A DNA stretch of 33,651 nt from Armatimonadota bacterium (GTDB taxonomy: Bacteria > Armatimonadota > Fimbriimonadia > Fimbriimonadales > GBS-DC): positions 1 to 33,651 of the forward strand of contig JABWCR010000028.1 of NCBI GenBank assembly GCA_013359125.1, written 5' to 3'. Shown here piece by piece: positions 167 to 33,651 of this stretch. Numbering within the stretch: the stretch's first letter is position 1; each line of letters starts with the position of its first letter. The position numbers and the translations under genes were made by a program. The notes under the pieces were generated by a model that was given only the letters and a program-made list of their open reading frames with translations, was not told the DNA's origin and did no database searches.

Positions 167-2683
167 TTAGCAACCGTTGCCGAAGTTCTCCAGCAAGATC
201 GCCAGATCGGTGTCGTCCACGATGCCGTCGCCGTTAAGGTCGGATGAGCCGCCAGCGGTCGAACCAAAGACGGTCAACAGCCGGGCTAAGTCCGCATCGT
301 CCACACAGCCGTTGCCGTCGATATCGCCCAGAGGATTGAACGGCAATCGCATCCGCCACATACCGCGGCCCCAGGTCGCTGCGTTCAGATACCCGGTGCC
401 CGCAACGAGCTTCAGGTCGTTCACCTGCACGTTGGGCAGTCCAAACGGCCGAGTGCCGTTGTACCAGGTCGCTCCACCATTGCGCGTATAGAATACGCCG
501 ACATCGGTACCGACATAGAGCCGACCCGTGTTGCCCGGCTCAACTTGTACGGTATTTGCAGGCACGTCGGGCAGTCCGGTCAGTCCAGATCCGCTGACAT
601 CGACCCAAACGCGCGTAACGGCTGCCGTGTTATCGCATCGCCAAACATGGCCGGTACCGGTACCGGAAACCGTTACCCATATGCGGGTTGGCGTCGTCGG
701 GTCGACCACAACGCAGGTGATCGCACGGTTGGGCAAACTGGGCGATCCGGTATTGATCTGCGTCCAGTTGGTGCCCGCGTTCGATGTCATCCACAGTTCG
801 CCCTGGTTGCTGCCGGTATAGATGTAGTTGCCGTTGCTGGGCGAGATACCAATGAAGTTGACATAGCCGCTGACAGACAACTCTTGGCTTCCTAATCGCG
901 CCGTCCACGATTGAGAGGTTTCGCTCCAGCGCCACAGGTAGTTCGACCCGGCATAGAGCAAGTTCGGGTTGGTGTAGCTCAGTTGGATCGGCGCGATAAA
1001 GCCTCGACGGTCGCTACCGAAACTAGGCGTGATCGTGTTGCTGCTGGACCAATCGTTGGCCGTGCGATAGATGTTTAGATTCTGAGAGGTGGCGTACTGA
1101 ATGTTCGGATTGCTCGGGTTGATCATGCAGAAGCCGCCGTCGCCGCCGCCCACATTGCGCCAAACGTCCAGATTGCCCGAACACTGTGGCGTGGCGTTAT
1201 CCTGCGTGCCGCCCAAGAGCCGGTTCGGGTCGGTCGGATGGAACGCAGATTTGTAGAACTGGGTGATGCCCAAGCGACGATTGTTGGTCGTGTTGAAGTT
1301 CCACAGGTTTGATCCGGAGTTCCAGTTAAAGGGGAATATTCCGCCGTCGTTGCCGACCAGCGCCTCGCTGGGGTTGGACCGATTGATCGCGATGGCGTGA
1401 TGATCGTTGTGGGTGAGCGCCGAGTTCGTGTAGGTCTGCCCCAGCGATTGCCATGTCGCGCCGCCGTCCGGCGACTGGACGATATCGATCAAACCGACAT
1501 AGATCACGTCGGTGGTCGATCCGTCGTTGCGATTTCCCACGTCCAAGAACATGTCGTAGGTGTGCTGGCTCCAGTTGTAGTTATTGCTCCCGTTCGGGAA
1601 GCCTGCAACGATGCTGGTCCAGTTGACTCCGGCATCCGTGCTGCGCCAGATGTTGCGGTTCACGCCCGAGATGATGTAGACGTTGTTATGGTTGTTGGGC
1701 GACGCCGCCACTCGCACCGAAGATTGGAACGCCGAGCTCATCGGCGTCGTCAGTTTGGTCCAAGTCGCGCCGTCGTCTGAAGATCGCCAGATCTCGCCAC
1801 CGTTCGAATGCCCGCTGACGTAGAAGTATCGCTTGTTGTTGCTGGGATTGATTCTTGAATAGGAAATGTGGCTCCAAACGGCGCTGGTCGCAATCACCAT
1901 CTGCCACGTGTCGCCGCCGTCGGTCGACCGGTAGACGTTTCCATTAGTGCTCGTTCTGCGCCCGACCGTCGCTAAGATGATGTTCGGCTGCTCGGGATGG
2001 ATGAGCACCTTGCTGACCGACCGCCCAGCCGACTCGGCAACGAGGTGAGCCGTCCAAGTCTGGCCGCCGTCCATAGAACGCAGAATGCCCTGGCCATATC
2101 CGCCGCCGCCAGGAAAGTCGCCCGTGCCGACATAAATCGTGTTGTGGTTGATCGGGTGGATCGCTACGCTGCTTGTTCTCATGTAAGTCCAGTCGTCGCT
2201 CATCGGCGTCCAATCGGCTCCAAAGTTCTCGGTCTTCCACAATCCGCCCACGCCAGAAGTCAAGAAGTAGCGGCCCAGTCCGCCCGGATGATAAGCGACC
2301 GAGCTTATTCGACCAATGATGTTGCCCTGGCCGTAATAGATTCGATAAGGCACCGGTAAATTGCGCGGCCCGAAATACTCCCATTGGGCCGCCATGATGC
2401 CGGCTTCCGTCGGCATGGCGTCGCGATGCAAAGCGCCTTGTTCGATCGCCTTCCAATCGACCTCGTCGTAAGGAAAGGCGCGCTGCTCGATGTAGTAAAG
2501 CCACGAAGCCATATATCCAGGACGAAAAGTGCGGCCTTCTTCCTTGGCCTTTTTGTGGTTCTCGGCAAAATAGGCCTTTAGCCTGTGCACGGAGTCGTAA
2601 ATGCCATAGAAGTTCTGGCCAAATCCGGATACGAACAGACCAGCCAGAAGTGCGATTGCGGTCAAGCGAACTGTGGTTCTCAT
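167..2683 (-). CDS. Secreted sortilin/BNR-repeat (VPS10-like beta-propeller) protein with C-terminal dockerin-like domain
   Basis: 838-residue secreted protein. The start at 2683 is preferred over an upstream in-frame ATG at 2797 because AGGAGG lies 7 bases before it and the protein then opens with a signal peptide (MRTTVRLTAIALLAGLFVSG). The body contains many Asp-box type motifs (SMDGGQTW, STDGGDTW, SSDDGATW, SPDGGATW), typical of BNR/sortilin beta-propellers that resemble glycosyl hydrolases. The last ~55 residues form two calcium-loop repeats (DIDGNGCVDDADL and DLNGDGIVDDTDL) ending in FGNGC, as in dockerin-like tails that recur in secreted proteins of Armatimonadota. The likely role is an extracellular or cell-surface binding or hydrolytic protein; no catalytic residues can be assigned. 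It is divergent from ygfZ, with 38 bases between the starts. Confidence 0.88.
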   Translation of the reverse strand: MRTTVRLTAIALLAGLFVSGFGQNFYGIYDSVHRLKAYFAENHKKAKEEGRTFRPGYMASWLYYIEQRAFPYDEVDWKAIEQGALHRDAMPTEAGIMAAQWEYFGPRNLPVPYRIYYGQGNIIGRISSVAYHPGGLGRYFLTSGVGGLWKTENFGADWTPMSDDWTYMRTSSVAIHPINHNTIYVGTGDFPGGGGYGQGILRSMDGGQTWTAHLVAESAGRSVSKVLIHPEQPNIILATVGRRTSTNGNVYRSTDGGDTWQMVIATSAVWSHISYSRINPSNNKRYFYVSGHSNGGEIWRSSDDGATWTKLTTPMSSAFQSSVRVAASPNNHNNVYIISGVNRNIWRSTDAGVNWTSIVAGFPNGSNNYNWSQHTYDMFLDVGNRNDGSTTDVIYVGLIDIVQSPDGGATWQSLGQTYTNSALTHNDHHAIAINRSNPSEALVGNDGGIFPFNWNSGSNLWNFNTTNNRRLGITQFYKSAFHPTDPNRLLGGTQDNATPQCSGNLDVWRNVGGGDGGFCMINPSNPNIQYATSQNLNIYRTANDWSSSNTITPSFGSDRRGFIAPIQLSYTNPNLLYAGSNYLWRWSETSQSWTARLGSQELSVSGYVNFIGISPSNGNYIYTGSNQGELWMTSNAGTNWTQINTGSPSLPNRAITCVVVDPTTPTRIWVTVSGTGTGHVWRCDNTAAVTRVWVDVSGSGLTGLPDVPANTVQVEPGNTGRLYVGTDVGVFYTRNGGATWYNGTRPFGLPNVQVNDLKLVAGTGYLNAATWGRGMWRMRLPFNPLGDIDGNGCVDDADLARLLTVFGSTAGGSSDLNGDGIVDDTDLAILLENFGNGC

Positions 2684-2707
2684 TGAGGAGCCTCCTGTTT
2701 CTACGGG

Positions 2708-2713
2708 TAACAT
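2708..2713 (+). promoter_or_regulatory. -10-like hexamer TAACAT just upstream of ygfZ
   Basis: TAACAT ends 8 bases before the ATG at 2722. No Shine-Dalgarno sequence is visible, so transcription would begin at or next to the start codon. One of several such arrangements in this window. No convincing -35 is seen. Confidence 0.4.
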
Positions 2714-2721
2714 TCGACGCA

Positions 2722-3588
2722 ATGGCGCAAGATTCCTATCTTGATTCTCGGCCTGGCGGTCTTTTCCGTCTACTGCCCAGTCAACGAATTGCCGCAATTA
2801 CCGGCAATGATGCTTGGCGTTTCCTTCAGGGACAGGTAACTCAAGACGTGTTAGGCATGGCGCCGGGCGAGGGCCGGGCGACGGCCTTCTGCGATCCGAC
2901 CGGCCATGTATTGGGAGAAGGCTACGTGCTGAGCGACGGCGATTCGGCGCTCGTCTGTGCGAGCGATCTCGCTATCTTCGAGAGGTTGGACGGTCTCCTC
3001 TTTATGGACGACGCCGCGATCAACATACTCAACCTGACATGCACGGCCATCGTTCGCGATGCGGATCCCGAGGGCCGGTGGACGCGGAACAAAGACGAAA
3101 TCGTGGTTTCGTATGATCGGACGGGCTTTGGCGGGGTTGACGTCTGGTCGCATGGTGTCCAATCCAATGGGGGATTGGACGAGAGCGGTTGGCGCGCGCT
3201 TCGATATGAGCGCGGAATGCCCGAGTACGGCATCGACGTTACAGCGAAAACGATCGCGAACGAGGCGGGCGAGCGATACATGAACCGGCGCGCATCGCTG
3301 ACCAAAGGCTGTTACGTCGGTCAAGAGGTGTTGATGCGAATCTATTCGCGCGGGAGAACGCAGAGAGAATTGGCGCATATTGCCATCGAAGGAAGAGAAC
3401 TACCGCCAGACGGCGCGCCGATCGCCTCGCGCGATCGCGATGACGCGGGATGGATCACCGGATGCGCTTTGACGCCGCTGGGCGCCCGCGGCATGGGCTA
3501 CGTTCGACGCGACTACTGGGACGGCGCCGAATTGACCGCTATCTGGGGCAACAGTTCCTGCAAAGTCTCGATAATCTCCTCGGGCTGA
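2722..3588 (+). CDS. ygfZ: YgfZ/GcvT-family folate-binding protein (Fe-S cluster maintenance)
   Basis: 288-residue cytoplasmic protein of the aminomethyltransferase-fold YgfZ/CAF17 family, which supports assembly or repair of Fe-S enzymes with a tetrahydrofolate-type cofactor. The family signature KGCYVGQE is at residues 195-202 with the conserved Cys197. It is followed by the expected basic R-x-x-S-R-G-R stretch, and a short barrel-like C-terminus is present. The ATG at 2722 is chosen over an in-frame ATG at 2650, which would overlap the divergent gene's start; the family normally begins close to the LxxRxxIxxxGxDAxxFLQGQ-like segment seen at residues 17-38. The 3' end overlaps the convergent glycosyltransferase gene by 76 bases. 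Confidence 0.88.
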   Translation: MAQDSYLDSRPGGLFRLLPSQRIAAITGNDAWRFLQGQVTQDVLGMAPGEGRATAFCDPTGHVLGEGYVLSDGDSALVCASDLAIFERLDGLLFMDDAAINILNLTCTAIVRDADPEGRWTRNKDEIVVSYDRTGFGGVDVWSHGVQSNGGLDESGWRALRYERGMPEYGIDVTAKTIANEAGERYMNRRASLTKGCYVGQEVLMRIYSRGRTQRELAHIAIEGRELPPDGAPIASRDRDDAGWITGCALTPLGARGMGYVRRDYWDGAELTAIWGNSSCKVSIISSG

Positions 3589-4484
3589 ATCTCTCTCAGG
3601 GCTTTTCCCGCATCGGAATGCGTCAGCTTTCGGTCCGAAGGTCGATAGATCGTGCGATGGATTTCCGTCCGATAGCCCCAGCGATGGCCGGTGTTAGGAT
3701 TGTGAACGCTGACGCTGGGAACCCCGAGCGAGACTGCGATGTGCCGCAGGCCCGTATCGCTGCTGAGCCAGAGACCGCACTGAGCGATTTTGGCCATCGC
3801 TTCGCGCAATGTGGTCTTTCCAACCAGATTGAGAACCTCTCCCTTGTACTCGGACAAAAACTTCTCAGCATACTCGGCCTCGTTTTGAACGCCAAAGATC
3901 GCAATCTGCCACCCGGCTTTCGATAGAAAGCGAGCGACCGGCGCCCACCGTTCCGGCGGCCACAACCGCCGGTCGGGATCGTTCGCGCCTGGCTGGATGC
4001 CGACCCATCTGCCAGACGGAAGCCGATTAGCCTGCCTCTCCTCTTTGCTAAGCCACAATTCTGGGAGCAGATTCTTGGGTGTTGCGCCCAAGACCTCGGT
4101 CAGTTTGCACAGGCTCTCGATCTCGGTGAGCGATGGGTCTTGGCTGACGGGATGGGTCAGCAATAGCGCTCTGCTTTCGGCGCGATGACCGATTCTGATC
4201 GGTATTCTCGCCCTCCACACGGTCCATGCAGAATTGACCGAACGATCGAACACAACCGCGGCGTCAAATCCCTGATCGCGCAGGAATCTGTGATCTTCCT
4301 TGGGCTGTCGCTCAATAAGTTCGGCAATCCAGGGGCAGCCCTGCATCGCCTCGATAGCGGCCCTGCCGGACATAAGCGTCAACCGGGCCTCGGGATGGGC
4401 CTGGCGCAGCGCTCGAATAGCGGGCGTCGCCGCAACCGTGTCGCCCATAAAGCGTCGCTTAGTAACCAGCAGGATCTTTCGCAA
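3513..4484 (-). CDS. Glycosyltransferase family 9 (heptosyltransferase-like), second of a pair
   Basis: 323 residues. The N-terminus (MRKILLVTKRRFMGDTVAATPAI) matches the GT9 pattern in which a hydrophobic strand is followed by a G-D loop and an A-x-P-A helix. The C-terminal half has the nucleotide-sugar site signature SSDTGLRHIAVSLGVPSVSV and a W-G-Y segment. Such enzymes transfer heptose or related sugars to lipid A-core type glycolipids at the inner face of the cytoplasmic membrane. The start is TTG at 4484, which overlaps the upstream GT9 gene by 26 bases, so translational coupling is likely. Its 3' end overlaps ygfZ by 76 bases. The exact sugar and acceptor cannot be read from sequence. 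Confidence 0.85.
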   Translation of the reverse strand: MRKILLVTKRRFMGDTVAATPAIRALRQAHPEARLTLMSGRAAIEAMQGCPWIAELIERQPKEDHRFLRDQGFDAAVVFDRSVNSAWTVWRARIPIRIGHRAESRALLLTHPVSQDPSLTEIESLCKLTEVLGATPKNLLPELWLSKEERQANRLPSGRWVGIQPGANDPDRRLWPPERWAPVARFLSKAGWQIAIFGVQNEAEYAEKFLSEYKGEVLNLVGKTTLREAMAKIAQCGLWLSSDTGLRHIAVSLGVPSVSVHNPNTGHRWGYRTEIHRTIYRPSDRKLTHSDAGKALREIQPEEIIETLQELLPQIAVNSAPSQ

Positions 4485-5475
4485 CTTTCGCCAACCTCAG
4501 TTCTACCAACTTGAAGACTTCGTCGACTGCGATCTCAGACAGGCCGTCTGGCCGGTAAATAGCCCATTCGCGCTGACCATAAGGGCCCGTTCGATCCGGA
4601 TCGGTAGGGCCAAAAAGGGATACGCAAGCGGCGCCCACTGCAGACGCAATGTGCGCGCTGCCCGTATCGCCGCAGACATGAAGAGCGCTCCTCTGGATAA
4701 CCCTTGCCAATTGCTTAAGCGTCGTCTGCGCGATGGTCGAGCGAAAAGCCTCCTTCTTGAAGCCCTTTGCGCGCTCGCCCAACTCTACATCGCCTGGGCC
4801 GCCCACAAAGAGCGTCTGCAGACCCAGATCGCGCTCAATTCGGTCCGAAAGCTCGGCGAAACGCTCCACGGGCCATCGTTTCCACTCGCGACCCGCCGAA
4901 GGATTGAGACTGACAAACTCCCGGTCGATCCCGACGTTAGCCAGCAGCGCGTCCGCCTTCGCTGTATCGTCGGGCGAGATTTGGATCGGAAACTCGACCG
5001 GATCGACCGTCGCCCCCAAAAACCGTGGCACATCCAGATACTGGTCCACCACGTGGACGCTTTCCGGTCGCCTCTCTACGCGCTTCATCAAAAAGCGCGA
5101 GCCCTCTCGAAGCCGATTGTATCCATATCGCCGCTTGGCGCCGCATCCGACCGTCCAAACAGCCGCCTTCAACAATCCCTGAAGATCGATCGCCAGGTCG
5201 TACCGATTGGCTCGAAGCTGCTTGGCGATCGTCCAACCTTCGCGCCATGTCGAGATCGAATAGCGCTTTGGCTTCCACTTCCTTCGCGGCAAGATGTAAA
5301 GATTGTCCAGACAGGGGTTGTCGATCAGCATGTCGGCGCTCATGTCCTCCACGATCCAATCAAGGACGATATGCGGAAACGATCGTTTTATGGCCGCTGA
5401 AACAGGCAGCGCGTGCACCACATCCCCGATCGAACTGAGCTTAACGATAAGAACTCGCCGACACTCGGCCAACAT
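4459..5475 (-). CDS. Glycosyltransferase family 9 (heptosyltransferase I/II-like), first of a pair
   Basis: 338 residues with clear GT9 features: N-terminal RVLIVKLSSIGDVVHALPV, an AIDLQGLLKAA strand, NPSAGREWKRWP (start of the donor-binding domain), VCGDTGSAHIASAVGAACVSLFGPTDPDRTGPYG (donor site) and an R-x-Y/P region near the end. It begins with ATG only 3 bases after the dnaN stop codon and overlaps the next GT9 gene, giving a compact dnaN-GT9-GT9 operon. The likely role is sequential addition of core sugars to an outer-membrane glycolipid, implying a diderm envelope. Confidence 0.88.
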   Translation of the reverse strand: MLAECRRVLIVKLSSIGDVVHALPVSAAIKRSFPHIVLDWIVEDMSADMLIDNPCLDNLYILPRRKWKPKRYSISTWREGWTIAKQLRANRYDLAIDLQGLLKAAVWTVGCGAKRRYGYNRLREGSRFLMKRVERRPESVHVVDQYLDVPRFLGATVDPVEFPIQISPDDTAKADALLANVGIDREFVSLNPSAGREWKRWPVERFAELSDRIERDLGLQTLFVGGPGDVELGERAKGFKKEAFRSTIAQTTLKQLARVIQRSALHVCGDTGSAHIASAVGAACVSLFGPTDPDRTGPYGQREWAIYRPDGLSEIAVDEVFKLVELRLAKVAKDPAGY

Positions 5476-5478
5476 GGG

Positions 5479-6594
5479 CTACAGCGCCATGGGCATCACG
5501 ATGCAAAGGTAGTTCTCGTCCTCTGCGGGCTTTAGCACCAATGGTCGAAGCGGATCGGTCAGTTCGATGTACAGATTGTCCCCGCCCATCGCATCGATCG
5601 CGTCCAGCAGATACTTGACGTTGCAGGCCAGCTGCACCGTATCGCCCTCGGCGACAACCCCGATCTCTTCGCGACCTTCGCCATATTGCTCGTGTCGGGC
5701 CGTGATGATCAGAGAATCGTTGCCGTCAGAACTTTTGCCCATTTCGAACGATACCTTGCCGGCCGCCGGCACGGCCAACGGCTGGAGCGTGCGCAGCGCT
5801 GGCTTCAGTTCCGAAACGTGAATCTGCCACCGTCGCGTAAACTCGGTGGGGATGACGCGCTGATAGTTGGGATAGGGGCTGGTGATGGTAGAGCCTACGA
5901 TCGTTGCGAGCGGCGTTTCGTACTTCACTCGGTTGCCCGCAATGTAAAAATCCAGTTCCTCGCTCTCGGCCACGCGCGAAACGGCCTGGGCGGCCTTCAG
6001 CGGCACGATCGTTTCGATCATGTCGGCCATGCCTTGCGAAGGCAGCGCAGCCTCGACCTTTGCTAAGCGATGGGTATCGGTGGCGACCATTCGCAACGTC
6101 GATCCGTCCCACTCGGTTTTGACCCCGCGCATCGACTGGCGGGCCTCGTCCTTTGCAACGGCGAACGCGACCTTCTCCACAAGCTCGATATACTGCTTGG
6201 TGGGCAGGGTGATCTTGGCAGGGTCTTCAATCTCTGGCAGATCGGGAAATTCTAATGCAGAGAGGCTGAGGAGATTGTATTCGGAACCGGGCGCTGTAAC
6301 CTTCACAGAGCCATTGGCCGCAGTTTGCACTTCAACGTCGCCGCGATTCCTGAGAGATTTGAGCACATTGAGGAAGAGATCGCCCGGCACCGTTGCCGAA
6401 CCGGTGTCCTTGACCAAGGCCGGCAGTCTGCGCTCGACCCAGATTTCAAGATCGCTGGCGACCAAGCGGATGCTGTCGGCCTTTGCCTCGATCAGCAAAT
6501 TGGTCAAAATGGGCAACGGGGTCTTTTCCGAAGTAACCGGCGCGACCTGTTCGGCCGCCTTAGCGAGCTCTTCGGTTGGGCAAACGAAATGCAT
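5479..6594 (-). CDS. dnaN: DNA polymerase III subunit beta (sliding clamp)
   Basis: 371 residues, the usual clamp length. The three-domain clamp pattern is visible, from MHFVCPTEELAKAAEQVAPVTSEKTPLPILTN at the start to the hydrophobic-cleft C-terminus ENYLCIVMPMAL. Conserved segments include GVKTEWDGSTLRMVATDTHRLA (end of domain 2 signature) and SPYPNYQRVIP. The ATG at 6594 has strong GGAGG/GAGGAG ribosome-binding sequence just upstream. The clamp encircles DNA and tethers the replicative polymerase. dnaA and recF are not next to it; instead two GT9 genes follow with a 3-base gap. So this is not a classical dnaA-dnaN origin region. Confidence 0.97.
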   Translation of the reverse strand: MHFVCPTEELAKAAEQVAPVTSEKTPLPILTNLLIEAKADSIRLVASDLEIWVERRLPALVKDTGSATVPGDLFLNVLKSLRNRGDVEVQTAANGSVKVTAPGSEYNLLSLSALEFPDLPEIEDPAKITLPTKQYIELVEKVAFAVAKDEARQSMRGVKTEWDGSTLRMVATDTHRLAKVEAALPSQGMADMIETIVPLKAAQAVSRVAESEELDFYIAGNRVKYETPLATIVGSTITSPYPNYQRVIPTEFTRRWQIHVSELKPALRTLQPLAVPAAGKVSFEMGKSSDGNDSLIITARHEQYGEGREEIGVVAEGDTVQLACNVKYLLDAIDAMGGDNLYIELTDPLRPLVLKPAEDENYLCIVMPMAL

Positions 6595-16648: not shown

Positions 16649-19600
16649 ATGAGCGTCAAGACGAGCGCCAAGGGGGTTGGGGTTCTATTGGGCGGCGTGG
16701 CGGGCGCCGCCGCAATGGGGCCGCTCGGCGCCTATTTTGGGGCCTCCTTGGGCACGGCCGCCGCCGGCGTTCTGAGCGCCGAAGCGGTTGCGGCCATCAG
16801 CGACGGAATTGCTGCGATCGGCGTCGAGATGATCGGCAGAGCGCTGGGCGACTTCAAAAACAACCGCCAAGAGAAAGAGCGTCTGAAGCTCAATCACGAC
16901 GTTGCCCGGGCGGTTACTCAGGCCTTGGCCAATGCGATGCATAACGAGGCCAAAGACGACCTGACCCGATTCTGGGCAAAAGGGCTGGAGTACGCGGCTA
17001 AGAATACGGAGGCGCACCAGAACCTCTACAAAACCGCGCACGAACCGAACTGGGAGCAAGAGACCCTTAAGAATCTGAGCGATTCAGAGAAGTTGGACGA
17101 TCTGGTGTGGAAGGATGTATGCAACTTCCTCCTGCGCCTTCCCGAGTGGCCCGGCGATTGTTGCCGTCCGTGGTATGCGCTCGGCTTTAACCGACGTGCC
17201 TTGAAAGTCAATCAAGTATCGGAACCAGACCGCACCCAACGATTAGTAGGCCTCCGCGACAAGGTTCTGCCCAAAATGGTCAAGGCCTATGCCGATGCGA
17301 TAGCGAAAGATCCCATTGCCCGTGATAAATCTTTCCACTACATGCTTCAGGTCATCGCCCAAGCACAAAAGGTCGACAGCGCAAAGCTCGACCAAATCCT
17401 AGGGCAGCTAAAAGACCTGAAGCCCGCCGACCATTCCAGCCTCCTCTTGGGTCAAGCAAGCGATGAAGTCCGCAAGATATTCTCGGATCTTGAGGCTGCC
17501 ATTCGCGATGAAGGCAAGAAGACGCGAGAACATGTAACCAAGACGACCAAAGAGATCAAGAAGGACACAGAAGCCATCAAAGCAGGCGTCGCCGCTGTCC
17601 ATGCCGATGTCAAGAAGCTCCAAGGCGCCCACGCCCTCATCCCGTCCAACCTCCCCAAAGACCCCGTAACCGCAGAGATTGAACGGCCGGAACTGATGAA
17701 GGAGATCGGCACGAAGCTCCAGAATGGCCCCGCCGTGCGGATGGGCGGCAGGGCCACCCTCCAGGGCCACGGCGGGCAGGGCAAGACGACCCTCGCCTAC
17801 GCCTACGGTCGTGCGAACTTCGACAACTACCCCGGCGGCGTCTATGTCGTCAACTGCGCGGGCGCCCAGATCGTCGAGCCGTTTGTAGCCTTGCGATTAC
17901 AAAACGAGAAGGTAGGCGAACCGCCGCCCGAGCATCCCGAACAGATCGTGAGCGCGCTGCTATCCGATCCAAACAAGAAGGCACTCGTCATCTTCGACAA
18001 CGTCGACTCCAAAGAGCAGTGGGACGAGTTCGTCCCCCTCTTGCCCAATTGCGACATCATCGTGACCACCCAGGACGAGAATATCGATCCCCAAGGCGCG
18101 ATCAAAGTAGAGCATTTCAGCTTCGAGCAGGCGCGAAAACTTCTGGGCAACTACCGAGAGTCTGCGCTGAAGGCTGAAAACGAACAAAACATAAAGAGCA
18201 TACACAGGGATACGGAAGGCCTCGCCGCCCTCATCGCAGCGATCGGCATGGCCATGAGTCTTGACAAATCAGACGGCTGGTCTAACTATGCCAATTGGCT
18301 GGCCAATGTCGATATCGGCCAATATCCCAAATTGAAGCACTATCCGCATACGACCGCGGCTATTCTGGACGGCCTGCGATCCAAACTCACACAACCTCAG
18401 CAACGAGTCCTGGAGTATGCCTCGCTGCTCCCGCCAGAGGCCCTTCGAGAGTGGTGGCTGAAATGGCTGCTTCAGCATGACGGCGTCGATCTGGGCACGG
18501 ACAGCCGCGGCGAGCCGCGAGAGCCTTCGTGGCACTTGGAAGGCCTAAAGGACCTCGGACTGTTGAGGCCGATGGACGAAGCGGGCGAGACTTGGTCCAT
18601 CAACCGCTTGCACCTGAAGAGGGCGCAGGAAGCGTTGTCGGCGACGATGACCGTAACAGATCCGATGGCATCGAAGTTGGTCGAACTTGCACGCACGGCG
18701 TTTGAGCGTGCGCGGGTCTCCCAAGAAGAGCTGCGCTATTCGCACGCAATCGACTTTTATACGCAGTGCATCCTCATCATGGAGTCGCAGCGCGAGGCGC
18801 TAGGCAAGTTGTGGCCAGCCGAGTTCCAGAACAACCTGGCCGGGGCCTACGCAAACCGCGGCAGCGCCAAACAGGACCTGCAACAGTTCGGCGCCGCCAT
18901 CGCGGATTACGGCGAGGCGATCGAGATCAGGGAGGCGCTGCGCGAGGCCTTTGAGGAGTCGGGCCAGCCGTGGCCGGCCGAGTTCCAGAACGACCTGGCC
19001 AAGGCCTACCTAAACCGCGGCAACGTAAAACAAGACCTGCAACAGTTCGACGCCGCCATCGCGGACTACGGCGAGGCGATCAAACTGATGAAGGCGCTGC
19101 GCGAGGCCTTTGAGAAGTCGGGCGAGCAGTGGCCCGCCCAGTTCCAGAACGACCTGGCCGGGGCCTACATGAACCGCGGCAACGCCAAAAAGGGCCTGCA
19201 ACAGTTCGGCGCCGCCATCGCAGACTACGGCGAGGCGATCGAGATCAGGGAGGCGCTGCGAAAGGCCTTTGAGGAGTCGGGCCAGCCGTGGCCGGCCGAG
19301 TTCCAGAACGACCTGGCCAAGGCCTACATGAACCGCGGCAACGCAAAACAGGGCCTGCAACAGTTCGGCGCCGCCGTCGCGGACTACGGCAAGGCGATCG
19401 AGATCATGGAGACGCTGCGCGAGGCCTTTGAGGAGTCGGGCCAGCCGTGGCCGGCCGAGTTCCAGAACGACCTGGCCGCGGCCTACCTAAACCGCGGCGT
19501 CGCCCGGAACGGCCTGCAACAGTTCGGCGCCGCCGTCGCGGACTGCGGCGAGGCGATCGAACTGATGAAGGCGCTGCGCAAGGCCTTTGAGGAGTCGCGC

Positions 19601-20200
19601 CAGCCGTGGCCGGCTGCGTTCCAGAACGACCTGGCCAGGGCCTACATGAACCGCGGCAACGCAAAACAGGGCCTGCAACAGTTCGACGCTGCCATCGAGG
19701 ACTGCGGCGAGGCGATCAAACTGATGAAGGCGCTGCGCAAGGCCTTTGAGGAGTCGCGCCAGCCGTGGCCGGCTGCGTTCCAGAACGACCTGGCCAGGGC
19801 CTACCTAAACCGCGGCAACGCCCAGCAGGGCCTGCAACAGTTCGGCGCCGCCATCGCGGACTACGACAAGGCGATCCAGATCAGGGTGGCGCTGAGAAAG
19901 GCGCTGGGCGACCAATGGCCGGCCCAGTTCCAGAACGACCTGGCCAAGGCCTACATGAACCGCGGCAACGCCCAACAGGGCCTGCAACAGTTCGGCGCCG
20001 CCGTCGAGGACTACGACAAGGCGATCGAAATAGCCAGAAACTTACGCGCCCTGCTCGAGCCGCGCGGTCATTGGGCGCCAGAACTCCGATACCTCTACGC
20101 CTTGATCCTAGGTAATCGGGCGATTGCTTATGATGAAGTCGGCCAGCACTATCTCGCCATAGCCGACCGAGAAGAAGCCGAGTCCGTCTGGCCTGCCTGA
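16649..20200 (+). CDS. STAND NTPase: glycine-zipper N-terminus, coiled linker, NB-ARC domain, tandem TPR-like repeats
   Basis: 1183 residues. Residues 9-65 are hydrophobic with two glycine zippers (G11-G15-G19 and G27-G31-G35), suggesting membrane insertion or oligomerisation. Residues about 270-322 form a charged helical coil. The NB-ARC core has Walker A GHGGQGKTT (373-381, Lys379), Walker B LVIFDNVD (446-453), a sensor-like IIVTTQ and a GL-rich segment, then a winged-helix-like region to about 680. From about residue 733 to the end lie eight TPR-like repeats of 53 (two of 50) residues that are nearly identical in DNA. The layout effector-like N-terminus / NTPase switch / repeat sensor is that of STAND proteins, known in anti-phage (Avs-type) and signalling systems. 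A defence role here is inference. It is a single gene, followed directly by REP-like hairpins. Confidence 0.88.
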   Translation: MSVKTSAKGVGVLLGGVAGAAAMGPLGAYFGASLGTAAAGVLSAEAVAAISDGIAAIGVEMIGRALGDFKNNRQEKERLKLNHDVARAVTQALANAMHNEAKDDLTRFWAKGLEYAAKNTEAHQNLYKTAHEPNWEQETLKNLSDSEKLDDLVWKDVCNFLLRLPEWPGDCCRPWYALGFNRRALKVNQVSEPDRTQRLVGLRDKVLPKMVKAYADAIAKDPIARDKSFHYMLQVIAQAQKVDSAKLDQILGQLKDLKPADHSSLLLGQASDEVRKIFSDLEAAIRDEGKKTREHVTKTTKEIKKDTEAIKAGVAAVHADVKKLQGAHALIPSNLPKDPVTAEIERPELMKEIGTKLQNGPAVRMGGRATLQGHGGQGKTTLAYAYGRANFDNYPGGVYVVNCAGAQIVEPFVALRLQNEKVGEPPPEHPEQIVSALLSDPNKKALVIFDNVDSKEQWDEFVPLLPNCDIIVTTQDENIDPQGAIKVEHFSFEQARKLLGNYRESALKAENEQNIKSIHRDTEGLAALIAAIGMAMSLDKSDGWSNYANWLANVDIGQYPKLKHYPHTTAAILDGLRSKLTQPQQRVLEYASLLPPEALREWWLKWLLQHDGVDLGTDSRGEPREPSWHLEGLKDLGLLRPMDEAGETWSINRLHLKRAQEALSATMTVTDPMASKLVELARTAFERARVSQEELRYSHAIDFYTQCILIMESQREALGKLWPAEFQNNLAGAYANRGSAKQDLQQFGAAIADYGEAIEIREALREAFEESGQPWPAEFQNDLAKAYLNRGNVKQDLQQFDAAIADYGEAIKLMKALREAFEKSGEQWPAQFQNDLAGAYMNRGNAKKGLQQFGAAIADYGEAIEIREALRKAFEESGQPWPAEFQNDLAKAYMNRGNAKQGLQQFGAAVADYGKAIEIMETLREAFEESGQPWPAEFQNDLAAAYLNRGVARNGLQQFGAAVADCGEAIELMKALRKAFEESRQPWPAAFQNDLARAYMNRGNAKQGLQQFDAAIEDCGEAIKLMKALRKAFEESRQPWPAAFQNDLARAYLNRGNAQQGLQQFGAAIADYDKAIQIRVALRKALGDQWPAQFQNDLAKAYMNRGNAQQGLQQFGAAVEDYDKAIEIARNLRALLEPRGHWAPELRYLYALILGNRAIAYDEVGQHYLAIADREEAESVWPA
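18845..20098 (+). repeat. 159-bp near-identical tandem repeats encoding the TPR-like sensor
   Basis: Eight in-frame units begin at 18845, 19004, 19163, 19322, 19481, 19640, 19799 and 19949. The first six are spaced exactly 159 bases (53 residues) and the last two are 150 bases. Each opens with AY-[LM]-NRGN and contains GLQQFGAAIADY and FQNDLA. Units 6 and 7 are the most alike. Units are conserved at silent positions as well, pointing to recent duplication or gene conversion. Confidence 0.92.
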
Positions 20201-31249: not shown

Positions 31250-33651
31250 ATGTTAGAGATACTGATAGATTCAACCGGCATTGCAAGATTGACTCTCGGC
31301 GCCATCGCCGAGAAAATCAGCAACGGGCACAACTACCACCTTGAGTATGTAGTCGAGGACGCCTTCCGAGCCGCATTAGACGGATTGGTAAACGACACCC
31401 GGGGAATGCTCAAAGCCGACTACGAGGCCGTCCGCAAGAGACTCCTGCCCCGCCTAAAGCCCGGTCCTCAATTCCCAACGCAAATTTCAGCGCCGCTTCT
31501 GACCAAGGACGTAGCCGCATTGCGACAAGCGATCGGGGAGATGATCCAAGGCGCCATTCCCGAAGAGAATCACGATTCCCGCACACGCATCCGGCGCGAT
31601 CTGCCCAACGCCTTCCTCTATGCGTTCTCGGAGCGCCTCAAACACAAGAAACACGCCAAAGGTTGGATCGCCTTCCAGCGAGAGTGTCTATGGGCGATCG
31701 CACAAAAACTCGACAACCTCCCGCCGACAAACCTCCTTGGGAACGCCTACGATGGCTTGGTCGAACAGATCGATCAGAAGATCAAAAACGCCCTTGATGC
31801 CCAACAGAAAACAATTGAAGCAGCGCTTAACAGAGCCCTTGCCAACCAGTATCGGCCGCAAGTCTATGATCCCCTGTTGGATGGCGCGATCGATGGGAAC
31901 GAGATTGATCGCTATCGCCAGGCTTTCTCGTACAAGTCGCGATTGACCGAGTACATCTGGCCGACCGAAGCGGCTGCCGCCGTGCACGACTTTCTGCATG
32001 ATGAACGTCGGTTTACTTGGTCGCTCTTCTTGGAAAAGGCTGGCGCCGGCAAGAGCCGATTCGGGCTGGAATGGGTCGAGAGGCTGAAAGCGAACGGACG
32101 ATGGGACGCCTTTTTCTTTGACGTCGGTCGAAACGAGAATTACGATCATTGGCGCGATTGGCAACCAGAGGCCGATACTTTGATAATCTTCGACTACGCC
32201 TATCAGGGACGAGAAGCGATCAAGAAGGCCATCCACGCGCTCCATCAACGGCAGAATGAACTTGAGCACAAGATCCGCTTCTTGCTTTTGGAAAGAGAGG
32301 CGATGGGGCGGTTCCTTTCGCAAGAACTGACTTCGACTGCCCGGTTTCGCGGCAGCCAGAAGTTCGATGACGTCAATCCCTTGCAGGCGTTGGCGGGCGG
32401 GCGCGGCTCCACTGAATCAGGCCAAGATTATTTCGAGATCGACCAGTTAACGCCTGACGCCCGCGCGCGAGCGCTGAAAGAGACCTATGGGCGATTCGTC
32501 GAGCCGAATAAGGCAAAAGATCGAGATTTTGATGCCTCGATCGCAGAACTGGACGCACAGGAGTTGAAGACGCCTCTATGGGCGATGCTGGCGGGCTTTG
32601 CACTGGCTTATGCGGACAACTCTGGAAGCGGACAGCCGAAACTGAACAAGCAGGAATTGCTTCAGGCTATCTTTGATCGCGAGACTCAGATGTTAGTCAA
32701 CTTGGCAGATCAAGAGGCCGGACGGAAGGTGGCCCATGCGGTCGCCGTGGCCAGCGCGTGCGGGCAATATAGTCGGCAAGCAGGGATCGACGCCGAGACT
32801 GAGTTGAACACAGCGTTCTTACAGGGCTATAGCCTGTTTGCCAATTATGATGGCAATAAAATGGCGATGAAACCGGCGCTGCCCGACCTGATCGCCGAGG
32901 CGTTTGTGCTGTTTGCATTGGATCAAAAAATCCTTCCGTCGTGTCAACCGCAACTGCGAGAAGAAGTCGGGTCTGCGATCCGCGACTGCGATTTGGAACA
33001 TCGCTGGAGTTTTGCAGCGCGTGCAGTGCAGAACTATCCCGAACTTTATCAAAAGGTTTTAAAGCCGCTATTGCCAGAGGGCAGCGAAGGCGAGTGGCTC
33101 GTCGAAGCGTTGGGGGCTATGGAGCAACCCCTGAGCGATAAAGAGTTGGAAGCGATAACCAACCGGGCGATAGCGCAGGGCAGGACGAGCGGGCCGTGGA
33201 CGGGTTATCTGGGGGTTCAAGCGGCGAGCGGTGATCCGAGGGCGTTGGTGGAAGGGCAAAGGCTGTGGCAGGCGTTGACGCAGAACGAAAAGGGCGGGCA
33301 CACGAGACCGTATGCTGGGCTGATAGTCAACAGTCTCGCGCGAGTTCCCTTGACGGTCGATGAGCGGCTCTCTGTTACAAACGATCTGAAGGCGCTCTGG
33401 GAGGCGTCGCAAGAGCCGGAGATCCGGCTGATATACGCCCAAGGCCTGTTCAATGCGATTAAGCCCGACATGACGGTCGAGCAGCGGCTCTCTGTTACAA
33501 ACGATCTGAAGGCGCTTTGGGAGGCGTCGCAAGAGCCCGAGATCCGGCTGGCATACGCCAAAGGCCTGTTCAACGCGATCCAGCCCGACATGACGGTCGA
33601 GCAGCGGCTCTCTGTTACAAACGATCTGAAGGCGCTCTGGGAGGCGTCGCA
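31250..33651 (+). CDS. Second STAND-like NTPase with tandem-repeat C-terminus (partial, runs off the window)
   Basis: Open from the ATG at 31250 to the window edge, 800 codons with no stop; the 3' end is missing. Residues 1-230 are mostly helical and unrecognised, ending in a coil (QIDQKIKNALDAQQKTIEAAL). The P-loop is at 264-269 (A-GAGKS, Lys268), though the usual first Gly is Glu, followed by RFGLEWVERL. Walker B is LIIFDYAYQG (Asp315), and RFLLLEREA follows, a combination typical of bacterial STAND/AP-ATPase-like proteins. The C-terminal part is a helical solenoid that ends in 40-residue repeats (TVEQRLSVTNDLKALWEASQ...). The layout parallels the STAND protein at 16649, but the sequences are unrelated outside the motifs. 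A sensor role in defence or signalling is inference. Confidence 0.85.
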   Translation, partial: MLEILIDSTGIARLTLGAIAEKISNGHNYHLEYVVEDAFRAALDGLVNDTRGMLKADYEAVRKRLLPRLKPGPQFPTQISAPLLTKDVAALRQAIGEMIQGAIPEENHDSRTRIRRDLPNAFLYAFSERLKHKKHAKGWIAFQRECLWAIAQKLDNLPPTNLLGNAYDGLVEQIDQKIKNALDAQQKTIEAALNRALANQYRPQVYDPLLDGAIDGNEIDRYRQAFSYKSRLTEYIWPTEAAAAVHDFLHDERRFTWSLFLEKAGAGKSRFGLEWVERLKANGRWDAFFFDVGRNENYDHWRDWQPEADTLIIFDYAYQGREAIKKAIHALHQRQNELEHKIRFLLLEREAMGRFLSQELTSTARFRGSQKFDDVNPLQALAGGRGSTESGQDYFEIDQLTPDARARALKETYGRFVEPNKAKDRDFDASIAELDAQELKTPLWAMLAGFALAYADNSGSGQPKLNKQELLQAIFDRETQMLVNLADQEAGRKVAHAVAVASACGQYSRQAGIDAETELNTAFLQGYSLFANYDGNKMAMKPALPDLIAEAFVLFALDQKILPSCQPQLREEVGSAIRDCDLEHRWSFAARAVQNYPELYQKVLKPLLPEGSEGEWLVEALGAMEQPLSDKELEAITNRAIAQGRTSGPWTGYLGVQAASGDPRALVEGQRLWQALTQNEKGGHTRPYAGLIVNSLARVPLTVDERLSVTNDLKALWEASQEPEIRLIYAQGLFNAIKPDMTVEQRLSVTNDLKALWEASQEPEIRLAYAKGLFNAIQPDMTVEQRLSVTNDLKALWEAS
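33353..33651 (+). repeat. 120-bp near-perfect tandem repeats in second STAND gene
   Basis: Units start at 33353, 33473 and 33593 (the last cut by the window edge), each exactly 120 bases or 40 residues. By eye units 1 and 2 differ at about 10 of 120 bases, and the visible 59 bases of unit 3 differ from unit 2 at one base. More units may follow outside the window. Confidence 0.93.

Follow-up and report, generated by a model that had tools for sequence, protein, structure and literature searches.

The final gene of the window (the whole stretch of DNA analysed here, 33,651 nucleotides, which is the entire contig C28, positions 1-33651, of a 2.82-Mb Armatimonadota genome in 47 contigs) encodes a P-loop protein that ends in near-identical tandem units, and in independent arrays of this kind from different species the same helix-A stripe varies. 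We conclude that the gene probably encodes a STAND receptor with a ligand-binding C-terminal solenoid whose units are re-sorted by recombination. Its product would be a stand-alone, NLR-like signalling NTPase in which an N-terminal effector or adaptor is followed by a P-loop switch module and, as C-terminal sensor, a two-helix alpha-solenoid. Unequal recombination or gene conversion would homogenise the 40-44-aa units within the gene and also alter their number. Scaffold residues would stay constant, among them the Asn that occupies column 13 in almost all units, and the most variable positions, a stripe along helix A (columns 6, 9, 12, 16 and 17), would form the ligand-contacting face. The features on which this account draws are as follows.

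16649-20200, plus strand: other compared gene, NB-ARC + TPR, 1183 aa, with an array at 18811-20028 (159 bp x 7.7)
31250-33651, plus strand: STAND-like P-loop NTPase gene, 5' part (800 aa), an open frame that runs off the contig, with its 3' end on contig C7
31397-31771, plus strand: N-terminal region (aa 50-174), putative effector/adaptor, from similarity and at low model confidence
32039-32059, plus strand: Walker A AGAGKSR (aa 264-270), with G265, G267, K268, S269 and R270 invariant in ten aligned sequences
32177-32197, plus strand: Walker B-like strand TLIIFDY (aa 310-316), with D315 and Y316 invariant and a strand at 309-315 in the model
32795-32869, plus strand: winged-helix-like segment with beta hairpin (aa 516-540), from the model, in which 507-542 have pLDDT <50
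33236-33352, plus strand: degenerate unit preceding the array, by eye from the translation, with a weak partial profile match at aa 693-722
33353-33472, plus strand: unit 1 of the 40-aa array, from TRF and unit comparison
33473-33592, plus strand: unit 2, identical to unit 1 at 110/120 bases (91.7%)
33593-33651, plus strand: unit 3 (59 bases), truncated by the contig end and completed on C7, identical to unit 2 at 58/59 bases
33559-33651, plus strand: 93 bases identical to the C7 end (reverse strand), the last 93 of C28 being the first 93 of reversed C7

TRF returned a single array at 33351-33651 with a period of 120, 2.5 copies, 93% matches, no indels and a score of 532, and all three units belong to a single frame (31250-33651, 800 aa) that is open at its 3' end. 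This confirms the near-perfect, in-frame 120-bp repeats that the sequence-only reading had placed at 33353-33651, and its estimates of unit identity (about 92% between units 1 and 2, 58 of 59 bases between units 2 and 3) were accurate. Unit 3 is a mosaic of its neighbors, matching unit 2 at five and unit 1 at four of the sites that separate those two. No TRF array with a period of at least 100 was found in 20 spread-out 20-kb stretches (400 kb) of the same genome, so the window array is not a product of chance. One of these 20 stretches carries 60- and 90-bp arrays. At L160:19367-19629 (G000:C14), units of 30, 60 and 90 bp code for KLADGAVTTxKI-type repeats unrelated to STANDs.

Because the contig terminates within the array, at 33651, the unit count is only bounded, at three or more. 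The end of contig C7 (minus strand) carries the 3' part of the gene: it completes unit 3, adds a single degenerate unit and then reaches the stop; if the overlap is a true join, the protein would have ~878 aa and three near-identical units. In a survey of 63 contig ends (41 starts and 22 ends, from the 47 contigs), an overlap of exactly 99 bases occurs in eight pairs and one of 93 bases in two. Since the other junctions measure 99 bases against 93 here, the overlap appears to be a dead end within the repeat, shorter than the apparent assembly word. We had also considered that the break marks an edge of the assembly graph where a word is repeated, which would have required extra identical units; this was dropped given 99 bases at eight junctions and 93 at this one. 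The array may then be partly an assembly artefact, a chimera of collapsed short reads in which the true number and order of units differ, as the position of the contig end and the short dead-end overlap would allow. Excerpts of a study of similar fungal receptor arrays report short-read assemblies that omitted or invented units (PMC12222747). However, the units are in frame and free of stops, the two contigs match across 93 bases, and comparable full arrays lie inside contigs elsewhere: 9.0 copies of 123 bp in relative G033 (86%, in frame), and 17.1 copies (87%) in Caulobacter sp. SLTY, the largest array found. We consider such an artefact very unlikely as an account of the array, and some further hidden units or chimeric units may be present in the window gene.

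The label "STAND" was at first a guess of the sequence-only reading, as profile searches with the window protein gave no match in Pfam (E 0.1), NCBIfam or PADLOC (E 1). The cut-off of the curated nSTAND_NTPase5 family (PF25199) was not reached, with no match at E 0.1, and PDB sequence searches yielded no name for the gene. Still, an alignment of ten P-loop domains shows conserved GxGKSR, DY and further Arg, and both the Walker A and Walker B motifs that mark STAND NTPases are present (invariant AGAGKSR and DY across the ten aligned sequences). When 18 relatives were scanned against PF25199, L253 alone passed, at 36.4 vs 34 bits, and the others fell below or were unmatched. The window N-terminal region is partly common to a NACHT-type protein (G006, aa 104-157; E 1.1e-4) and a TPR protein (G023, aa 50-174; E 5.8e-7) from the same taxonomic order. 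STAND NTPases have the order NBD-HD-WHD followed by sensor repeats; a model of the window protein built from 12 sequences (mean pLDDT 62, low confidence in places) places an alpha/beta core, a helical part and a beta hairpin before the solenoid, and the superstructure-forming C-terminal repeats appear as a helix-pair array with pLDDT 80-92 over aa 701-800. Foldseek matches to this model, all at low TM, include SAMD9, NOD2, NRC2, a STAND-TPR protein (6mfv), Avs5 and Avs4.

From the P-loop alignment, the model and the fold matches, the STAND assignment holds fairly well, in the sense of STAND-like: the protein is probably a divergent member of the P-loop NTPases with a STAND build, close to nSTAND_NTPase5, and may work by a STAND switch mechanism, with an ADP/ATP switch and oligomerisation on ligand. 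The placement of the array in a putative sensor is likewise supported by its C-terminal position. We weighed a non-STAND, AAA+-like P-loop protein with a scaffold role, given the absence of a curated STAND match for the window protein, similarly scoring AAA_16 matches, and Foldseek scores for AAA+ proteins (ORC, RFC) about equal to those for STANDs. Against this, the relatives lean to nSTAND_NTPase5, their N-termini differ, and the class of repeat changes behind one and the same P-loop family, a combination that makes a scaffold protein quite improbable. The window gene itself is solitary, and no nameable defence genes are adjacent to it.

These differences emerge from a wider set of relatives. 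A class search with the window protein matched 12 of 113 genomes, its own included. At E 1e-3, 138 of 291 genomes match, mostly through the Walker A stretch alone, and we took as members the 16 rows under 1e-15. The scan of named genomes gave 38 loci with a patchy distribution over Armatimonadota, Alphaproteobacteria, Planctomycetota, Firmicutes, Nitrospinota and others, five of which (L227, L231, L235, L242 and L257), judged by contig name or length, duplicate genes from the class and phylum searches. Behind the P-loop, in-frame TRF arrays (period at least 60) are present at 13 of the 38 named loci, with main periods of 120-132 bp, all multiples of three, and six of the 13 reach the last base of their contig (L223, L225, L227, L229, L245 and L249). 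Repeats behind this P-loop include the 40-44-aa type, TPR or TPR-like, LRR, ANK and PPR (ANK and some TPR/LRR assigned by eye). N-termini range from hydrophobic helices in several members (by eye) to an alpha/beta hydrolase in L245. In the latter gene (L245:1262-3625) the N-terminal alpha/beta hydrolase is DUF676/PGAP1-like, and the array (126 bp x 2.1, 97%) runs to the contig end.

Copy number, whose conservation across relatives would have refuted the sequence-only reading by its own account, is not conserved; near-identical units number from ~2 to 17, and some members have only diverged ones. Beside the long arrays above, G065 has 3.2 and 2.4 copies of 123 bp flanking a run of 100 Ns, G056 carries arrays of 4.1 and 4.7 copies of 123 bp on separate contigs, each located at a contig end or close to one, and G271 has 3.6 copies of 102 bp at a contig end. 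Novispirillum itersonii ATCC 12639 has 5.6 copies in the interior of a long contig. G079, G071 and G072 have diverged units only. On contig G035:C10 (L213), a P-loop gene at 2911-4758 is overlapped by a frame at 4725-5882 whose 123-bp x 7.6 array runs off the contig; the gene may be split, or a frameshift or an error may be involved. Close orthologues for a comparison of copy number between sister species were sought in the family of the Novispirillum relative, where five of 73 genomes match and none is close except itself, and in the window's own family, where two of 18 match, itself included. Scanning the contigs of genomes with the window protein as sole query gave no relative. The window protein had no tblastn match among plasmids; as query, the Novispirillum relative gave seven partial matches in plasmids and none in phages.

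Units are mostly far more alike within arrays than between species. Mean within-array nucleotide identity is 0.908 in the window, 0.919 in G065 (two units), 0.822 and 0.889 in G056, 0.853 in G033, 0.722 in G035_C10 and 0.534 in G079, and units from arrays of different species share 0.36-0.56. This excess, which applies to most arrays, is as expected if the units undergo concerted evolution, and recombination may be its cause. It also supports the recent amplification proposed from the sequence alone, "recent" being relative to species divergence. Measured against a published benchmark of >85% identity over at least 100 aa (PMC4986451), the window array lies barely above the line, with a mean aa identity of 0.858 for three units and 120 aa, a figure that assumes the C28-C7 join. 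Units of the two G056 contigs, C13 and C8, share 0.847, and the first 124 bases of reversed C8 occur in C13, which would fit one broken gene or two close ones.

According to structural models, the units form a two-helix alpha-solenoid. The model of the G033 array (pLDDT 92.5) has 24 helices arranged in pairs. Foldseek ranked an engineered repeat protein (4rv1), Vac8 and others first, with importin alpha lower, and VIA-align gave Z of 15.5 for the LGN TPR, 14.7 for importin alpha 3 and 14.7 for the OGT TPR, values which for repeat proteins may reflect a common arrangement. Several of these nearest structures (TPR and ARM solenoids) were solved with bound peptides. A PDB search with the array alignment gave only chance-like matches (best E 0.76), so descent from ARM or TPR is not evident from sequence.

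To compare units, we numbered columns with the P of PEVRL as 1; in the corresponding PEIRL phase, the window has two visible units. The five stripe columns lie at N-7, N-4, N-1, N+3 and N+4 relative to the Asn. Across four arrays of other species (G000 and G065 deliberately excluded, as were single units of G056 and G079), mean entropy peaked at columns 9, 12, 19, 6, 16 and 17. Across nine arrays including the window's (the seven of 16 with fewer than three anchored units omitted), columns 16, 17, 6, 9 and 12 ranked most frequently in the top five for variability within columns 1-19; no variation was seen at columns 3 and 10. Asn occupies column 13 in 51 of 53 units of the nine arrays, between variable flanking columns, and the anchoring motif itself favours Asn. 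The window pair follows the same pattern: its three replacements fall only at columns 6, 9 and 16, and its four silent changes all fall elsewhere (stripe pN 0.329, pS 0; rest pN 0, pS 0.158). Another phase, which takes in all three window units, gives five replacement columns, three in the stripe and two outside. These five have higher entropy in other species than random columns (p 0.013, or 0.030 with poorer gap placement).

The stripe is a candidate ligand face. pN/pS is higher at the stripe than in the rest in each of four arrays; it is clearly above 1 only where silent changes are absent (G056 and the window), it is below 1 over whole units in G033, G035, G065, G079 and the window, and in G033 it is below 1 even at the stripe. 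Positive selection is therefore not demonstrated, and we treat it as a lead. The same values leave room for neutral slippage or recombination of a repeat protein, in which solenoid units would duplicate occasionally, near-identity would simply record recent events and the stripe would be the face free of packing constraints. Constraint in a solenoid is lowest at surface helix positions, whole-unit pN/pS mostly stays below 1, and the three relatives with only diverged units would suit such drift. Yet arrays recur at 13 of 38 family loci in several phyla vs none in the 400-kb sample of the window's genome, and the stripe of G056 and of the window pair holds replacements and no silent changes. 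A neutral origin is possible but, in our view, unlikely, and we continue to favor a receptor whose solenoid binds ligand through the stripe.

The window's own genome bears on how general this process is. The sequence-only reading had described a second in-frame array with a different unit, and the NB-ARC + TPR gene indeed has 7.7 copies of 159 bp. By eye, the most variable sites of its 53-aa units (18811-20028) include N-4 and N-1 before a constant helix-A Asn, as in the gene at the end of the window. From the two genes it had proposed a common diversification process in this genome, and suggested a genome-wide search for other long in-frame repeats in P-loop genes, with absence of similar arrays from other STAND genes of the genome as a refuting outcome. 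A profile search of the genome placed NB-ARC at seven places, six of them above the cut-off, and AAA_16 at 38, and we took 15 further P-loop loci around NB-ARC and the longer AAA_16 frames. Only one of the 15, on contig C40, has an array with a period of at least 100: an AAA_16 + TPR gene (L138:1360-4134) with an in-frame array of 144 bp x 4.9 (85%). Five TPR loci of the same genome (L214-L218, of which L218 overlaps an earlier P-loop locus) had no such array. The outcome was mixed, with arrays in three of the P-loop genes examined and none in most, and a process common to the genome is unsupported (one of 15 further P-loop loci, no TPR locus, nothing in 400 kb). Arrays in this genome are concentrated in this receptor class, yet not in every member. 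Because arrays also occur in members of this receptor family from other phyla and are few in their own genome, the pattern tracks the receptor class rather than the genome, which supports sensor diversification as a feature of these receptors. Variable sites of the C40 array lie partly at similar helix-A places (the residue before Lys or Asn, by eye), and 38-bp tandem repeats lie at each end of contig C40 or close to it. The C7 gene located past the array (L002:94-1062) and the window gene at 167-2797 (minus strand) encode proteins with similar DxDxNxxxDDxDLAxLLxxFG tails, dockerin-like by eye.

Several known systems share parts of this design. Fungal NLRs (het-d/het-e/hnwd, TPR and ANK forms) pair a STAND core with C-terminal repeats >80-85% alike, and available portions of two papers describe concerted evolution, changing repeat number, a few hypervariable sites per unit and unreliable short-read assembly (PMC4986451, PMC12222747). 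The likeness to the window family extends to each of these features, whereas the latter is bacterial, with a divergent P-loop and 40-44-aa two-helix units, and its copy number was compared between species only. WRAP WD40 propellers on bacterial STAND ATPases also consist of recently amplified near-identical repeats, with a proposed role in innate immunity according to excerpts of PMC9218822, which cites Dunin-Horkawicz 2014; this cyanobacterial precedent is built of beta-propeller blades, unlike the open alpha-solenoid of variable length considered here. Given the fungal NLR and WRAP precedents, this kind of receptor is already known, and the new part is a bacterial alpha-solenoid form with a common variable stripe. 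The anti-phage STAND Avs5 has an N-effector, a STAND NTPase and variable C-terminal helical repeats required for sensing, as stated in a partial text of PMC12931631. With Avs5 and Avs4 the window protein shares a proposed N-effector, STAND NTPase, C-terminal helical repeats and fold matches; however, Avs5 carries nSTAND3 and Sir2, and the window protein lacks a PADLOC match. DGR-diversified bacterial STAND sensors likewise have a diversified C-terminal sensor, but they rely on mutagenic retrohoming of a C-type lectin (PMC10907252, in part), in contrast to the apparent whole-unit turnover here. Among open-licence papers, in the portions of text retrieved, a literature search returned no publication that describes arrays for this P-loop family. 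The receptor may act in defence or self/non-self recognition.

Conserved Asn residues suggest a further comparison. Designed ArmRPs have a conserved Asn ladder (PMC6838082) and OGT has conserved contact Asn residues (PMC4840301), each as given in excerpts. Armadillo/TPR peptide binders (importin alpha, LGN, OGT, designed ArmRPs) resemble the array in their helical solenoid units and conserved Asn, a likeness of predicted structure and Asn with no PDB sequence match to the window family. ArmRP contact positions and TPR hypervariable positions are part of the background to this comparison, as are TALE and PPR codes for modular, unit-wise reading. A bolder proposal, which we hold to be doubtful, is that these proteins are widespread bacterial NLR-like receptors with a modular peptide-reading solenoid: the Asn of each unit would fix the ligand backbone, the five stripe residues would read side chains, and recombination would re-sort and re-count units for a fast shift of repertoire, TALE/PPR-like but for peptides. 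Such a class would be hidden in short-read databases because assemblies break in the arrays. If the favored receptor account is right, concerted evolution of hypervariable receptor repeats, as seen in fungi, would extend to a bacterial family in several phyla, a brief list of residues bearing on ligand choice would follow, and sensor domains often cut or garbled in short-read genomes would lead surveys of bacterial immunity to undercount diversity.

Contig breaks appear over-represented in these receptor genes, which is suggestive and not proof. Among the 38 named loci, 16 have a contig end within 1.5 kb on the downstream side of the P-loop and four have one on the upstream side (p 0.006), and with a 3-kb limit the counts are 17 vs 9 (p 0.084); frames are open on the 3' side in 15 and on the 5' side in two. 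Part of this downstream excess is expected because the gene is longer behind the P-loop than before it, and at L234, L247 and L260 the contig ends before any repeat, so not all breaks fall in repeats. By break density, among the 10 members whose assemblies have no more than 60 contigs, four are broken where 0.33 would be expected (P 1.6e-4), in a test conceived post hoc with rounded sizes and assumed gene lengths and with the weaker third G035 member omitted. Six members in more fragmented assemblies were kept apart, and five of them are broken against 2.3 expected. Ends of the window genome's own contigs C15, C20 and C21 overlap in 21-base steps, and 21-bp tandem repeats of ~ten copies each lie close to genes of this kind in two species of the order (L222:16237-16444 and L041:3360-3560).
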